A DNA stretch of 64,000 nucleotides. Origin: Bacillota bacterium. Lineage in GTDB: Bacteria > Bacillota > Clostridia > Lachnospirales > Lachnospiraceae. Positions 28,400 to 64,000 of this stretch are shown piece by piece. The position numbers were made by a program, and so were the translations under genes. The notes under the pieces were generated by a model. The model made no database searches. It was not told the DNA's origin and worked only from the letters and a program-made list of their open reading frames with translations. Each line of letters begins with the position of its first letter. Positions within the stretch are counted from its first letter, which is position 1. The stretch spans positions 77,073 through 141,072 of the forward strand of contig JAUNDN010000001.1 in assembly GCA_030526045.1 (NCBI GenBank), in the 5' to 3' direction.

Positions 28400-30064
28400 C
28401 TACAAAAACTGCTCTATAAACTCTGCAAGCGGGCATGGCTTTCCAAAATAGTAGCCTTGAATATAGTCGGGATCGATCTCACAAATCTTATCCAGTTCTT
28501 CCTTGGTCTCAATTCCCTAAATACAAAGCTTCAGATTAATGTCATGTACCATATCTGACATATGCTGGAGCAAATGATGTTCATAGGTATTCTTAAGCGC
28601 TTTTAAGGTAAAGGATCTGTCAATCTTAATCGTATTCAACTTCAGATCATATAGATAATGGAAGTTGGAATAGCCCGTTCCGAAGTCATCTAGAGCCAGT
28701 AGAATTCCATTATTCTTCAGTCCGTCACAGAAGTTGAAGAAAAATGTATTGGACTCCAAAAAACCGCTTTCCGTCAGCTCAATAATAATACTGTCAGGGC
28801 TCAGATGATGCTTCTCAAGGCACTGAAGAATTTCACTTAAGACATCACTTTTGAGCACCTGGATGTAGGAAAGATTCACCGAAACCCGAAAGTCCGGAAG
28901 CTTTTCCCTGACTTTGGCGCACGCGGACATTGCCTGGTCTAAGACCCATTTCCCTACCGGAATGATCAGATTGCTTTCCTCAAGAAGCGGGATAAATTCT
29001 CCCGGAGAAATCATTCCTGTCTTTTCACTTCGAAATCTCAGAAGCGTTTCCGCATTACACAGCTTCCCTTCCCGGATATCCATAATCGGCTGAAAATATG
29101 CCTCAAATCCCTTAAAATTGTGATTTACCGCCCATAGAAGTGTGGAAGTCAGTTCCTTCTTATGAAGAAACGCGTGATAGTCCTCCTTCGCATAAATGTA
29201 ATACTTGTTCTTCCCCGTGTTCTTTGCTTCGTTCATCGCAAACTCGGATAACTTCATCAGATTATGGTATGCTTTGTTCACCACCAGTGAGAAGTCTATA
29301 ATTCCGGCTGAAATGGTGTAAAACACTTCATAACATTGTTGTTCAATGAACCTGTTTAGCTTATTCTGTATCCTGCTGTAAAGTTCCACGGCTTCCTCTA
29401 TGGTTCTGCCCGTCAGATCTACAATTGTATATTCATCTGCTACCACACGATACAGCTTCTGCTCCGGCAGAAGAACTGACTGAATACATTCCGCAGTCTT
29501 TCCGATGATCATATCACCGTATTCAATTCCCTTGTTTTCATTGATTTCCTTAAAGTTATCGATCCCGAGTCTGATCAGGAAGCCCTTCATATCCTCTCCG
29601 CTGTGCAGACCAAGCTCCTTCTGCAGGCTTTCTTCCCTTAAGAGCCCACTGACATTGTCCGCCTTCTGTTTGAGCCCGATCTCATTAATACACCCAACCA
29701 GAAATGCCGGTGTTCCGTCCTGCGCATTAATCACGCGTCCTCTGCAATTAATCCAGATCGGCTTTCCCTCTCTGTCTCTCCAGCGATACTGTAGGTTATG
29801 GAACCGTTTACCGTGATGCTCAATCTGATCCAGATCTGCCATAAGAAGAGCCAGATCATCCGGATAGGTAAGTTTTTGCAAATTTTCAGAAACATGATCA
29901 AACCGGCTCGACGGTATGTCAAAGCGCTCCACTGCATTTTCGGAAATGCAGTAGCAGTCGTTCTTCATATCTAAAATATACAGATAATCATCCATGCACG
30001 GATTCAGAATCTCAATTGTATTTTGGAACTGCTCCATTGTAATGCCACTAAATATTTTCTCCAT
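28400..30064 (-). pseudogene. PAS-GGDEF-EAL protein with in-frame stop in the EAL domain
   Basis: The frame from the ATG at 30064 (after GGGGGG) encodes a PAS-like domain (about 1-130), a GGDEF domain with a degenerate core (VVADEYT in place of GGDEF, so not a cyclase), and an EAL domain (NAETLLRF, ELTESGF, DDFGTGYS, KIDRSF). A TAG at 28517-28519 falls exactly where the conserved EGIET glutamate should be. The same frame then continues cleanly for 38 codons (GIETKEEL...YIQGYYFGKP...) to a TAG at 28400. The truncated protein lacks essential EAL residues. One base change (GAG to TAG) explains it. Confidence 0.85.
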
Positions 30065-59180: not shown

Positions 59181-61130
59181 ATGAATACAGAAAGCAAAGA
59201 TTATCTTACAGGTCTATACACCAGACAGGCATTATATTCTATATACCAGAGCATGGTTGAAGAAAGTATTTTTCATTTCATGTTTATGGATATTGATAAT
59301 TTCAAAAATGTAAATGATGTGTATGGACATAACACAGGGGACTTATTATTAAAATCTGTTTCCAAAATATTAATTACCAGCGCACCTGATGCCCATGCAT
59401 TCCGTCTTGGAGGAGACGAATTTGTTCTTCTGTTTCAAGGTAATCGTTCGCGTGAATATCTTTGCACAGTTGCGCAAAATATCATCGACAGAGTGATTGC
59501 CAGGGAGGGCTTTCCGGCAATCAGTACTTATCTTTCTGCAAGCATTGGCATCCTCTATCATGAAACTGTAACCGGATTGCTTGATGATGTTCTTGCCAAA
59601 AGTGACATGGCAATGTACTATGCCAAAAGTCATGGGAAGAGTCAGTACATTGTCTTTAACGATATTGCACAGACTGTTTTTTCCGAAATAGAAATGGAAA
59701 AGCAGCAACAGTCTTCCTTTGATCATGGTGATTTTGAAATCCGTTATCTGCCAGTTATCAGTGTTCAAACCTCACGACTTCGTTTATCGCAGGTACGTCT
59801 TTATTGGAATATGCCAGATGGAACCGTAAAATCTCAGGAAGAATTTATTCCTCTCTTTGAAAAGAACGGATTTATTCGACAATTGGATTCTTATGTTATC
59901 CGCTCTGCTTTTTTACATTTAAAATATTGTCATGAACATTACCATCATGCCGGGAAAATCGGTCTTCGTGTTTCAAGGCTCACTCTTCTTAATGCTGATT
60001 TTCCAGGATTTCTGGAATCTCTTGTGCGTACCTACCAGGTCGCTGCTTCTGAACTTGATTTTGAAGTTGCTGAAGCCTCTTTCGTTCGAGGAAGTTCAGA
60101 AATGTTAAAGACCATGGAATCATTAAAGAAAATAGGCTTTGGCATATCCATCTTAGGGGTCGGATCAGACTTTAAAAGTCTGGCCTATTGGGATAAGCTG
60201 ATGTTTGATTCCATTTTTTTTGATGCTGAATACTTAAAAAATGCCCTGAGCACCAATAGGGGAAAGCAAATTGTAAAAGCCCTACTTGTTATGGGAAGAG
60301 AATTGAAAATGCAGGTAATTGCAGATGGCATCACAAATAAAGAAGAAGCTCTCTTCTTAAGTGGCTGTGGATGTAACGCAATCAGCGGTTCCTTCTATTC
60401 GGAACCTTTATCTCTATCCTGCTATTATGATTATGTAAAAGATAAAATTCAGCTTGAAGAGGATAAAGTTCAATTCTTCTTTACCGACAACTTCAATTCT
60501 TCTGATAATAAATTTACCGGAAAAATACTTGGCAATAATGTGCAGCTCACCCCCGGTATCAGTAGCAAATGGGGCGCTGCTTATTTCCCAGGTGGCAGTT
60601 TCGGAGAAAATGTTTTGGAATTACCCTCTGCCATTTTAGCAGACTCTTCCTATACTCTATGCATGTGGCTGAAGCCCGTAAAAAGCAATAGCTGGACAAG
60701 CTCCTTTTATGCCCGTTATCAGGGAAGCTTTTGCTCATTTTCTCCTTTTGTCATGGGTGGAAACAATGTTTTCCGCATCAGTGAAGATGCTGATGTAAAT
60801 GGCTTCCATGATGCCCTGTCTAGGCAACTTCAGGATAATATCTGGACCTTCGTGTGTCTGACTTATAATGCGGTTTCCGATGTAAGCCGTACCTATATCA
60901 ATGGTCGAAAAGCCGGCTTTTGTTTAGATGTCCCTTCACTGCCCGCATGTCGGCAAATATTAATCGGTGGAGATCCTTTCCAGCCTTCTTACGAAGGATA
61001 TGTTTCAGGACTTATCTTTTTCAACTCTGTAAAATCAGAAGAAGATATTTCGGATTTATATCAAGACTTTTGTCAGGAGCCCGGTTTCCAGGGAGAAAAG
61101 GAAGACTTCTGGATGGAGAACCGTACATAA
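59181..61130 (+). CDS. Cytoplasmic GGDEF protein with degenerate EAL and C-terminal LamG-like domain
   Basis: 649 residues, no membrane segment or signal. The GGDEF domain (about 1-160) is intact: metal Asp37/Asp39 in FMDIDNFK and RLGGDEF (Gly-Gly-Asp-Glu-Phe 77-81), without an RxxD inhibitory site. The EAL domain (about 180-420) is ruined: EAL, the ELTE and DDFG motifs and EGVET read SQVRLY, FEVAE, GVGSD and ADGIT. Residues about 430-640 resemble a LamG/concanavalin-like jellyroll (YTLCMWLKP, WTFVCLTYN, INGRKAGFC). It likely makes c-di-GMP under control of a glycan or protein ligand. It shares an operator-like motif with the adjacent arabinanase and regulator. Confidence 0.85.
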   Translation: MNTESKDYLTGLYTRQALYSIYQSMVEESIFHFMFMDIDNFKNVNDVYGHNTGDLLLKSVSKILITSAPDAHAFRLGGDEFVLLFQGNRSREYLCTVAQNIIDRVIAREGFPAISTYLSASIGILYHETVTGLLDDVLAKSDMAMYYAKSHGKSQYIVFNDIAQTVFSEIEMEKQQQSSFDHGDFEIRYLPVISVQTSRLRLSQVRLYWNMPDGTVKSQEEFIPLFEKNGFIRQLDSYVIRSAFLHLKYCHEHYHHAGKIGLRVSRLTLLNADFPGFLESLVRTYQVAASELDFEVAEASFVRGSSEMLKTMESLKKIGFGISILGVGSDFKSLAYWDKLMFDSIFFDAEYLKNALSTNRGKQIVKALLVMGRELKMQVIADGITNKEEALFLSGCGCNAISGSFYSEPLSLSCYYDYVKDKIQLEEDKVQFFFTDNFNSSDNKFTGKILGNNVQLTPGISSKWGAAYFPGGSFGENVLELPSAILADSSYTLCMWLKPVKSNSWTSSFYARYQGSFCSFSPFVMGGNNVFRISEDADVNGFHDALSRQLQDNIWTFVCLTYNAVSDVSRTYINGRKAGFCLDVPSLPACRQILIGGDPFQPSYEGYVSGLIFFNSVKSEEDISDLYQDFCQEPGFQGEKEDFWMENRT

Positions 61131-61160
61131 AAAATGCCCTGTTTTCCAGGACATTTCTTT
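61131..61160. terminator. Bidirectional terminator between GGDEF-LamG and arabinanase
   Basis: AAATG-x-CCTG (61132-61141) pairs with CAGG-x-CATTT (61147-61156) with one mismatch. T-rich tails follow on both sides. The genes are convergent. Confidence 0.7.
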
Positions 61161-62478
61161 ACAGGTCTCTTATTCTTTTAGCCCAGCATGCAATTCCTTT
61201 TTCAGACATTCCTGTCAATGCGACAGTCGGTTTGTTGGATTCATGGTCCCATACTGCACCTGCATAGCAGATTTCTTTATTCGGTCCATAGATTATACAA
61301 ATCATATTATTTCCTATGTACTCCCACTTCCCCTGAATAGAGCAGCACTCATAGTAGCCGTCCTTTCCAAGTTTCATTGGAACAGCTGTCTGTATTCCCT
61401 GCGGGAGAGAAGGCATAAGAACAATTTTCTCATAATAACCGACAAGTTCTTCTTTTTCAATCTTCTGATCTTTTTCACCACTGTAAGGCTGTGCACTGAC
61501 TAACGGCCAACCATCAGGGGTCCAGAAAATTTTTCTCACCTGCATAGTAGAAGGTTCATCTGCACCTGTGAAATTTTTCTCTCTGATATGACATACCAGG
61601 TACCAACTGCCATCCGCATCATGTAAAACAGAATTATGTCCGGGTGCCATATATATCGTTCCTTTGTTCCAACCATAACCACAAAAAATCATACATCCAA
61701 TTGTATTGTCTGCGTCTTCAGTGTCAGTCAGTTTCCTTCCGTGAAAGTCTGTAAAAGGTCCCGTAATACTTTTACTTCTTCCTACCCGTATATTGTAATC
61801 ACTCTTTAAGGAGCCATAGGAAACAAATAAGTAGTAATATTCTGTTTCCGGATGATAAATCATATATGGGCCTTCAATTCCCCCGCTCATCCATAGAGGT
61901 CTTCTGGCAACGCAGGTTCCAATTCCTGTATTCTTTGCCAACCCAGTTTCTTTATCTAGTTCAAGGGCATAACATCCTCCCCAAAAGGAACCATATATCA
62001 TGTACATCTCGCCAGTTCCTATATCTGTAATAATATTCGCATCAATTGCATTTACCGGAAACTCATCACTCGTTTTTAATACACAGCCTCTGGGGACAAA
62101 AGGTCCCTCTGCATCATTAGCTACTGCAAGAAATATGCAGGATTGACGTACTCCCCATGAAGAATTTGAACAGTATAAACGGTATTCATCTCCTACCTTT
62201 ACGATATCTGGTGCCCATATATCATCTCCGCCAACCCATTCCCTAGATTCTGCAGGCGGTGCATCCACAACCTTACCAATCATCTCCCAATGAATTAAAT
62301 CGCTGGATTTCTGGCAAATTGCGCCGGTACAATAAATATAATAATTGTTCGTTTTAGGATCTTTGAAAATTGCTGGATCATGTGTAAGCCATAATCCCAG
62401 CTTTTTATTTGTTCTTTCAATTTCATTTTTTAACACCTGTTTTTCCGGCTGCAACGGCGGTTTTGGGGGATAAATCAT
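61159..62478 (-). CDS. GH43-family endo-arabinanase-like enzyme, cytoplasmic
   Basis: 439 residues without a signal peptide. A five-bladed propeller carries the GH43 triad: base Asp34 (THDPAIF), the middle Asp (VNAIDANI) and acid Glu (SGGIEGPY). A C-terminal beta domain of about 110 residues (ELVGYYEKIVLMP...WEYIGNN) resembles the extra domain of extracellular arabinanases. The lack of a signal suggests action on imported arabino-oligosaccharides. GAGGAAGG precedes the ATG. It is divergent from the ArsR-type gene and carries a variant of the shared operator. Confidence 0.9.
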   Translation of the reverse strand: MIYPPKPPLQPEKQVLKNEIERTNKKLGLWLTHDPAIFKDPKTNNYYIYCTGAICQKSSDLIHWEMIGKVVDAPPAESREWVGGDDIWAPDIVKVGDEYRLYCSNSSWGVRQSCIFLAVANDAEGPFVPRGCVLKTSDEFPVNAIDANIITDIGTGEMYMIYGSFWGGCYALELDKETGLAKNTGIGTCVARRPLWMSGGIEGPYMIYHPETEYYYLFVSYGSLKSDYNIRVGRSKSITGPFTDFHGRKLTDTEDADNTIGCMIFCGYGWNKGTIYMAPGHNSVLHDADGSWYLVCHIREKNFTGADEPSTMQVRKIFWTPDGWPLVSAQPYSGEKDQKIEKEELVGYYEKIVLMPSLPQGIQTAVPMKLGKDGYYECCSIQGKWEYIGNNMICIIYGPNKEICYAGAVWDHESNKPTVALTGMSEKGIACWAKRIRDL

Positions 62479-62669: not shown

Positions 62670-63593
62670 ATGCTTCACATTAAATCATTAGATGACGGTC
62701 TTGAAATCTTCAAAGCACTTGGTTCAAACATCAGAATCGAAATCATAAAAATACTGCGTGAAAACAATGGCATGAATATGAATGATCTCGCTTCCTGTCT
62801 TAACATTACAAACGGGGCTCTTACCAGTCATATTAAGAAACTGGAGGATTGTGGTCTTATCACTATAGCTTCCGAATCTGCCGGGCACGGGAATCAGAAA
62901 ATCTGCTCCGTACATTTGGACAAAATTTTGATTGATGTAGATTCTCCCGAAGAGGATGCCAACGTTTACCAAACAGAATTAAAGATCGGTCATTTTTCCA
63001 ACTATGATGTATATCCTACCTGTGGTCTCGCATCTTCTACCACTGTAATCGGTGAAGTAGATGACACTAGGTACTTTGCTCATCCTGACAGATATAATGC
63101 TGATATTCTTTGGTTTACAAAGGGTTTTTTGGAATATATCATTCCGAATTTTATTCCTTTCTCGCAAAAGATTGATAAAATAACCATTTCTGCCGAATTG
63201 GGGTCTGAAGCTCCCGGTGTTAACGACGTATGGCCATCAGACATCTCCTTCTATATCAACGATACCTTTATTGGTTCCTGGACAAGTCCAGGCGATTTTG
63301 GTGATGTAAAAGGTATTTTCACTCCCGATTGGTGGTTCCCAAACTGGAATCAATATGGTCTGTTAAAGTTACTGGTAATCAACAAGCAGGGAACTTTTAT
63401 TGATGGTCTGCAGATCTCGGATGTTACCATTAAGGACTTAAACCTTACCGATAAAAGTACGATTCGACTAAAGCTTTCCGTAAATGATGACTCCACCTAT
63501 GTAGGCGGTCTTACCATATACGGCAAGAATTTCGGTAACTACAATCAGGATATTAATGTACGTATCAACTATAGTCCAATTACCCCAGAATAG
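62670..63593 (+). CDS. ArsR-type HTH regulator with unusual C-terminal beta-rich domain
   Basis: 307 residues. The N-terminal winged helix (about 8-90) has FKALGSNIRIEIIKILRENN and LASCLNITNGALTSHIKKLED, typical of the ArsR/HTH_5 fold; no metal-binding Cys is present. Residues about 105-307 form a Trp- and Gly-rich region with many beta strands (WPSDISFYIND, DWWFPNWNQYG, YVGGLTIYGKNFGNYN) that looks like a ligand-binding jellyroll rather than a metal sensor. AGAGGAA precedes the ATG. Its neighbours suggest it senses arabino-oligosaccharides or a related metabolite. Confidence 0.85.
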   Translation: MLHIKSLDDGLEIFKALGSNIRIEIIKILRENNGMNMNDLASCLNITNGALTSHIKKLEDCGLITIASESAGHGNQKICSVHLDKILIDVDSPEEDANVYQTELKIGHFSNYDVYPTCGLASSTTVIGEVDDTRYFAHPDRYNADILWFTKGFLEYIIPNFIPFSQKIDKITISAELGSEAPGVNDVWPSDISFYINDTFIGSWTSPGDFGDVKGIFTPDWWFPNWNQYGLLKLLVINKQGTFIDGLQISDVTIKDLNLTDKSTIRLKLSVNDDSTYVGGLTIYGKNFGNYNQDINVRINYSPITPE

Positions 63594-63598
63594 AAATC

Positions 63599-63627
63599 GG
63601 CTTCTGAGAAATCAGAAGCCATTTTTT
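63599..63627 (+). terminator. Terminator after the ArsR-type regulator
   Basis: GGCTTCTGA (63599-63607) and TCAGAAGCC (63612-63620) with a GAAA loop, followed by ATTTTTT. The stop of the convergent chemoreceptor overlaps the T-run. Confidence 0.92.
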
Positions 63628-64000
63628 AATATCTGAATTTGTCCATAGAGTGTGACAATTCTTCTGCTTCTTTATTCAAATTATCTGCATTACTAACCAG
63701 TAAATCCACTTGCTTCATCTTATCATTTACTGCCATTGATACTTCATCAACACTTTTTACAATGTTTTCTGCAATATCAGAAATACCCTGCATAATCTCT
63801 ACTACTTCCTCTTTGTTTTCAACCATTCCGGATATATCTTCCTGCATGATGTAAATTGCACTTACCAGTTCTGTTACCTGAGCGCTGATTGCACCAAACA
63901 TTTCTATCGTATCATTTAATGCAGTAATTTGCTCATTTAGGAAAAGATCCGTTCTCTTGGCAGATGCCCTTGTCTTTTCCGTAATACTATTGATATCTGC
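63626..64000 (-). CDS. Methyl-accepting chemotaxis protein, C-terminal part only
   Basis: The last 124 residues of a chemoreceptor; the rest lies beyond the window. The frame is open to the edge (ADINSITEKTRASAKRT...). The long helical pattern with Ala/Ser/Glu repeats and the terminal AEELSHSMDKFRY matches the second half of the MCP signalling coiled coil. The conserved tip is not in view. Confidence 0.78.
   Translation of the reverse strand, partial: ADINSITEKTRASAKRTDLFLNEQITALNDTIEMFGAISAQVTELVSAIYIMQEDISGMVENKEEVVEIMQGISDIAENIVKSVDEVSMAVNDKMKQVDLLVSNADNLNKEAEELSHSMDKFRY

Follow-up and report, generated by a model that had tools for sequence, protein, structure and literature searches.

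A predicted cytoplasmic diguanylate cyclase with a LamG domain related to Domain 4 of the arabinanase AbnA, and its linkage to GH43 genes among relatives

Domain organization of the GGDEF-EAL-LamG protein

The 64,000-nucleotide stretch of contig JAUNDN010000001.1 analysed here (the window), from a bacterium of the family Lachnospiraceae, contains a gene whose 649 aa product joins a GGDEF domain to a degenerate EAL domain and a C-terminal LamG-like jellyroll. An initial annotation had tentatively read this product as an intracellular glycan sensor that sets the output of cyclic di-GMP (c-di-GMP), a reading that the sequence analysis described below supports. The gene and its domains are as follows.

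59181..61130, + strand: GGDEF - dead EAL - LamG gene, 649 aa (open reading frame with ATG start; Pfam, structure model and hydropathy; predicted cytoplasmic)
59199..59642, + strand: GGDEF domain, residues 7-154 (Pfam E 1e-25; catalytic residues intact, RxxD inhibitory site absent)
59703..60407, + strand: EAL-fold domain, residues 175-409 (Pfam E 2.2e-42; catalytic positions lost; predicted coupler)
60468..61100, + strand: LamG/concanavalin-like jellyroll, about residues 430-640 (Pfam, PDB profile, LamG-only model, Foldseek and VIA-align; predicted arabino-oligosaccharide sensor)

The reading frame at 59181-61130 is real, and Pfam finds all three domains in the annotated order, with Laminin_G_3 matching residues 477-624 (E 2.3e-13) and a PF13385 score of 51 bits (cut-off 27.6). 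The proposed jellyroll fold of the C-terminus was borne out by structure prediction, as the LamG domain modelled alone consists mostly of strands and reached a predicted local distance difference test (pLDDT) score of 92.8 and a predicted template modelling (pTM) score of 0.90; the AlphaFold model of the whole protein has a mean pLDDT of 91.3. The annotation had also described the protein as free of a signal peptide and membrane anchor, and we agree: the highest hydropathy mean over 19 residues is 1.05, no segment is hydrophobic enough to span a membrane, and no signal peptide is apparent by eye at the N-terminus. The gene is the sole Laminin_G_3 match of its genome at E <= 0.001, while the same genome has 25 GGDEF matches, 9 EAL matches, three for PilZ and four for flagellin. 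A further GGDEF-EAL gene in the window (G000:C8:105508-106185, about window positions 28436-29113, - strand) has an in-frame TAG inside its EAL match, reflecting either a damaged gene or a sequencing error.

An intact GGDEF domain beside a degenerate EAL domain

A homologue search showed that the architecture recurs, with GGDEF, EAL and LamG domains all present in 118 of the 120 best homologues listed (from 1859 proteins above threshold); the two exceptions, P0084 without GGDEF and P0086 without LamG, are both short. The family alignment holds 118 sequences, namely the window protein and the 117 of these 120 homologues that are at least 600 aa long (P0084, P0085 and P0086 were dropped), and since P0001 is 99% identical to the window protein, the window sequence weighs nearly double in it. 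Conservation, measured as the mean frequency of the top residue, was lowest in the EAL domain (0.58), compared to 0.62 in LamG and 0.66 in GGDEF.

The claim that the GGDEF half keeps its catalytic residues and has no inhibitory RxxD site holds across this alignment. G78, D79 and E80 are invariant in 118/118 sequences (G77 is found in 110 and F81 in 117), as are the metal and GTP-site residues D37, D39, N45, D46 and D54, and no RxxD lies ahead of the GGDEF motif, column 71, where its D would fall, never being D in the 118 sequences. The window protein is a predicted diguanylate cyclase.

The EAL half had been described as having lost all main motifs, and this stands for most catalytic positions. 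Mapped through the alignment to MorA, the window protein has Q at E204, R at N263, L325/G326 for the DD pair, F at K346, D at E382 and S at Q402, leaving one of eight catalytic positions (E, N, E, DD, K, E, Q); the word "all" goes too far, as E295, E298 and D348 remain. In the family alignment none of the eight positions is kept in five sequences, one in 39, two in 63 and three, the maximum, in 11, with position 263 never N and position 402 never Q. Despite the database label "EAL domain-containing protein", a phosphodiesterase reading was rejected on the basis of these residues. Binding of c-di-GMP without cleavage is not favoured either, because R208 of EALxRW is R in only 6/118.

The best solved matches to about residues 5-416 are the GGDEF-EAL hybrids MorA and PA0575 (PDB 4rnf, 4rnh and 5m3c). 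MorA is titled a diguanylate cyclase - phosphodiesterase, whereas the window protein has an EAL domain without most catalytic residues and an added C-terminal LamG domain. LapD and FimX, degenerate GGDEF-EAL receptors in which the GGDEF domain is without its catalytic motif, appear among both the structural and the profile matches and share the EAL fold with catalytic residues lost. Unlike them, the window protein has an intact GGDEF domain and no evident membrane or periplasmic part, and membership in the LapD/FimX class was rejected because the GGDEF motif is intact in 118/118.

The LamG domain and AbnA Domain 4

By both sequence profile and structure, the nearest solved relative of the LamG domain is the arabinan-binding Domain 4 of AbnA, the extracellular GH43 arabinanase of Geobacillus stearothermophilus (PDB 5hon and 5ho0), and a GH43 (glycoside hydrolase family 43) context is common to both. 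Among candidate cleft residues, W496, W555 and D544 have identical partners in AbnA in the profile alignment, and W505 and R532 have none. AbnA is secreted and its Domain 4 serves the enzyme, whereas the window domain sits in a predicted cytoplasmic c-di-GMP protein. Binding of arabinan or arabino-oligosaccharide has been shown for AbnA and is predicted for the window domain. Matches to neurotoxin binding domains, sialidases and pentraxin folds were set aside as general lectin-fold likeness because they score lower than AbnA.

The same bacterial family also has three GH43 proteins with Laminin_G_3 (L173:1458-4721, L174:2991-6920 and L175:571-3723). Two of them, L173 and L174, were retrieved with the window LamG query, carry SLH domains and, unlike the window protein, neither GGDEF nor EAL, and their match to its LamG domain is weak (E about 4e-7). 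It is possible that these three proteins are extracellular counterparts of the sensor domain.

A nearly constant LamG tail with varying predicted outputs

Comparing the window protein with 21 locus sequences (n = 22, excluding the broken L159 and contig fragments), we found the LamG signature W496-W505-R532-D544-W555-D598-Q601 complete in 20/22, with L165 and L167, of one genus, having K at Q601. The catalytic half is far less uniform, and ranges from cyclase-like through a combination of both activities to phosphodiesterase-like. Eight sequences (window, L149-L155) have an intact GGDEF and keep 0-2 of the eight EAL positions, eleven (L156, L157, L158, L160-L165, L167 and L179) have GGDEF or GGDEY and 6-8 EAL positions, and in three (L166, L168 and L178) GGDEF is broken at the aligned place and all eight EAL positions are kept. 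Since L178 has a second, N-terminal GGDEF, the appearance of a phosphodiesterase alone is limited to L166 (L166:8079-10088) and L168 (L168:6982-9879), in which the LamG tail is kept, GGDEF is broken and EAL is complete. These two relatives likely have an output opposite to that of the window protein. A tail shared by likely makers and likely breakers of c-di-GMP suggests that the tail is the input module. In genome G132 an in-frame TAG interrupts a third LamG-GGDEF/EAL copy (L159:3307-4728).

Searches detected the LamG domain in 4/37 genomes of the window's genus and in 21/397 family genomes (E <= 0.001); 16 of the latter had a match below 1e-20. An order-wide profile search at E <= 1e-20, with at most nine candidates scored per genome, matched 1/295 genomes, the window's own, which is no proof of absence. 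The genus count, the 16 strong family matches and the order-wide count speak for a patchy spread. Standalone LamG proteins of ~126-400 aa were hardly found at the sensitivity used (one match in 91 candidates). A contig scan with the full alignment kept 80 loci and was set aside; because its patterns sat in the GGDEF half, these were mostly ordinary GGDEF or GGDEF-EAL proteins, and only L002 aligned as far as residue 638 (29% identity), the rest stopping at residue 450 or before.

The window locus and GH43 linkage across relatives

Downstream of the cyclase gene the window contains the following genes.

61159..62478, - strand: GH43 + GH43_C protein, arabinanase type (Pfam and PDB relatives; convergent neighbour, signal peptide not evident)
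62670..63593, + strand: ArsR-type winged-helix regulator (Pfam; likely regulator of the locus)
63626..64000, - strand: C-terminal end of a 730 aa chemoreceptor (MCPsignal), continuing beyond the window (L169:4699-6891; Pfam)

The best solved relatives of the neighbouring GH43 are YxiA and the Abn2 arabinanase, and its top PDB relatives are mostly arabinanases. Beyond the window end (L169) lie, in order, the chemoreceptor with transmembrane hydropathy, a GH43 of 320 aa with no signal evident, a DUF624 gene, two ATP-binding cassette (ABC) permeases, a solute-binding protein and a GH43-GH43_C protein, the last two with lipoprotein-like starts. Together with the window GH43 and the ArsR-type regulator, this set reads as an arabinan capture, import and digestion locus with the cyclase at its edge. 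In the passages concerned, a comparative genomics paper on Butyrivibrio reports that signal sequences are missing from most GH43 of those rumen bacteria and says nothing of a window-type protein (PMC6912079).

If the cyclase is tied to arabinan use, its relatives should lie near glycan genes as well, and the idea would fall if they never did. We compared the distance to the nearest listed GH43 for 23 LamG-bearing genes and 143 other GGDEF matches in 19 genomes, and a GH43 lay within 2 kb of 9/23 LamG genes versus 0/143 controls, within 5 kb of 11/23 versus 2/143, and within 10 kb of 11/23 versus 12/143. The GH43 set was the best 150 of 234 matches and the GGDEF set the best 150 of 406, the controls being these 150 minus the seven on LamG genes. 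Distances started from the whole gene for most LamG cases (a domain or gene part for three) and from the GGDEF domain for controls. The fused gene of G077 described below is left out of the 23; counted among them are a broken copy (G132:C22) and a fragment at a contig end (G314:C131) that shows the LamG end alone and is one of the nine near cases. Three of the nine come from one genus, and counted per genus a near GH43 is found in 6/15, or seven counting the fused gene.

The nearby GH43s are of at least two kinds, being 61-75% identical to that of the window in L149, L150 and L153 and 29-32% identical in L152, L156, L158 and L163. In G012 and G013 a gene with an arabinofuranosidase domain (Alpha-L-AF_C) immediately precedes the LamG gene in the same orientation, and in G301 one lies two places away, with a gene related to the ArsR-type regulator of the window in between. 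In G405 the cyclase gene sits between two GH43 genes on one strand, 11 and 27 bases separating the called reading frames, and a solute-binding protein gene is also present. L153 additionally has GH53 and GH1 genes, consistent with galactan.

Several side observations concern these loci. A xylulose-5-phosphate/fructose-6-phosphate phosphoketolase gene (pentose catabolism; L165:4833-7220) lies directly upstream of a LamG gene on the same strand, and proteins without a Pfam match lie near LamG genes in two genera (L157:11498-13483, 661 aa; L163:5046-6974, 642 aa). Chemoreceptor genes occur in the locus of the window's genome (63626-64000/L169:4699-6891) and in that of G012 (L149:11349-13649), and one adjoins the LamG gene in G112 (L154:5876-7597). 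Relatives of the ArsR-type protein (L149:10303-11232, L151:7918-8844 and L160:8556-9485) are near or beside a LamG gene each time, with identities of 87% and 90% in two genomes of the same genus and 46% in another genus. Its C-terminal region of ~220 residues had no match in Pfam and PDB searches, and the protein is possibly a new type of sugar-responsive repressor.

Fusion of the cyclase to GH43

The linkage goes further in G077, where one open frame (L155, 1093 aa) encodes GGDEF-EAL-LamG-GH43-GH43_C with a GH43 domain 51% identical to the window's neighbour. A search with L155 found at least 53 full-length four-domain proteins (P0121-P0173, P0121 being L155 itself) and two partial ones (P0174 and P0175) among 120 listed. 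In the fusions G78-D79-E80 is intact in 53/53 and the EAL domain keeps at most 2/8 positions. The GH43 triad D34, D146 and E202 is intact in all 53 and in the window neighbour (54/54), and GH43_C is found in that neighbour and in L155, the precomputed GH43_C label being absent from part of the fusions.

A quick tree was built from 75 rows (window, 18 loci, 29 selected unfused proteins and 27 of the 53 fusions). Fused sequences make up 28 of its rows, with L155 duplicating P0121, and form one group with support 100 in which the unfused P0176 is nested. The window protein falls in the same 64-row clade as the fusions, genes with a GH43 neighbour are found on several branches, and L166 and L168 are on long branches.

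Proposed mechanism and alternatives

Building on the domain make-up, the EAL residue loss, the relationship of the LamG domain to AbnA Domain 4, the linkage in the genome and the fusions, all of which the sequences establish, we infer the ligand, cyclase activity, coupling, sign of response, cellular place and end of the signal as follows. The window protein is probably a cytoplasmic diguanylate cyclase that senses imported arabino-oligosaccharides through its AbnA-Domain-4-like jellyroll. A lipoprotein GH43 would cut arabinan outside the cell, the ABC importer would take up the oligosaccharides, and the LamG domain would then bind one that is several arabinose units long. Binding, relayed by the pseudo-EAL domain, would alter GGDEF dimerisation and likely raise c-di-GMP, which would favour staying on the fibre over swimming. 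The cytoplasmic GH43, next door or in the same chain in relatives, would then cut the ligand to short sugars and end the signal. The direction of the response is the weakest step, and we consider activation about twice as likely as inhibition.

A number of points weigh against this mechanism. In GGDEF proteins the input domains are usually N-terminal to GGDEF. The cyclase and GH43 genes of the window converge, so that a single operon was rejected, and a search for c-di-GMP riboswitches across the window and 11 loci (138 kb and 116 kb) gave none. A listed GH43 lies within 5 kb of only 11/23 LamG genes, and the adjacent genes scanned in L157, L161, L165, L166 and L154 included no glycan gene; in several loci neighbours were scanned in part, and those of L167 and L168 are outside the scan. 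An intracellular arabinanase had been annotated next door, and while a GH43 + GH43_C protein without an evident signal peptide does adjoin the cyclase, its scores against the four NCBIfam arabinanase models it matched all stay under the curated cut-offs (best 262.9 bits versus 800), so its arabinan substrate is likely rather than proven. Finally, the LamG domain is just 17-20% identical to AbnA Domain 4, and the family-invariant W505 and R532 lack an identical partner in AbnA in the profile alignment, so the ligand could differ from that of AbnA.

These last differences bear on one alternative, in which LamG senses some other glycan (another furanose, galactan, or a host or cell polysaccharide) and the arabinan genes lie nearby through shared regulation only. 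The GH53 and GH1 genes of L153 would fit galactan, and several members have no adjoining arabinan genes. We nevertheless find this unlikely, as AbnA is clearly the best match by profile and fold, the window neighbour and the fusion partner in L155 both have the GH43+GH43_C make-up, the former with mostly arabinanases as its best PDB relatives, and arabinofuranosidase-domain genes adjoin in G012 and G013. Information could also flow in reverse, with the GGDEF-EAL part as regulator and its GTP or c-di-GMP state altering how LamG, and GH43 in the fusions, handle arabinan oligosaccharides. Outputs often lie at the C-terminus, where the fusions have an enzyme with an intact catalytic triad. There is precedent for a c-di-GMP-controlled glycan enzyme in GlgX, as far as the passages concerned describe it (PMC9530166). 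With that said, GGDEF catalytic residues invariant in 118/118 exceed the apparent need of pure ligand binding, no c-di-GMP site is evident with the inhibitory site and most EAL positions including R208 lost, and in unfused members the chain has no enzyme to regulate, which makes reverse flow similarly improbable. Least likely is a scaffold in which LamG tethers the cyclase to arabinanase or glycan-laden sites without regulating its activity: carbohydrate-binding modules of enzymes bring domains to substrate according to part of one paper (PMC9110388) and the fusions show that cyclase and GH43 are compatible within one chain, but no cytoplasmic polysaccharide anchor is evident, and LamG is kept whichever type of output it accompanies, phosphodiesterase-like members included, as would better suit an input module.

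Relation to known systems and significance

Sensor-GGDEF proteins are a known kind, and the intracellular input of carbohydrate-binding module (CBM) type and the cyclase-GH43 fusion make this a new variant of it. The initial annotation knew of no described system of this kind, and titles and abstract openings of the papers listed likewise gave us none, nor any paper joining GGDEF and EAL with LamG, or GGDEF with GH43 or arabinanase, in a search that most subscription papers fall outside. A comparable case is a GH126 protein of Bacillus velezensis, which likewise joins a glycoside hydrolase and a GGDEF-fold domain in one chain and is the one such protein in the passages concerned (PMC7479077). 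It differs in its other glycoside hydrolase family and in its C-terminal GGDEF-like domain, whose motif is degenerate (SAERF for GGEEF), and neither a CBM nor an EAL domain is listed for it in those passages.

Returning to arabino-oligosaccharide sensing, we tentatively suggest, and hold this a little less likely than its opposite, that fibre-degrading anaerobes converted the CBM of an arabinanase into an intracellular second-messenger receptor, wired to a cyclase, a two-way enzyme or a phosphodiesterase depending on the lineage. The four-domain fusions would then read, report and destroy their ligand, a self-erasing nutrient signal in which the link between enzyme and sensor is made physical.

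Many c-di-GMP proteins have no known input signal, and we are aware of nothing in print on how fibre-degrading bacteria of the Lachnospiraceae type tie diet to c-di-GMP. Here, the label "EAL domain-containing protein" masks lost EAL catalytic residues and a predicted cyclase, and the kinship of the tail to a crystallised arabinan-binding module provides a named, testable candidate ligand. The likely role of the protein is to inform the cell of imported sugars from plant fibre.
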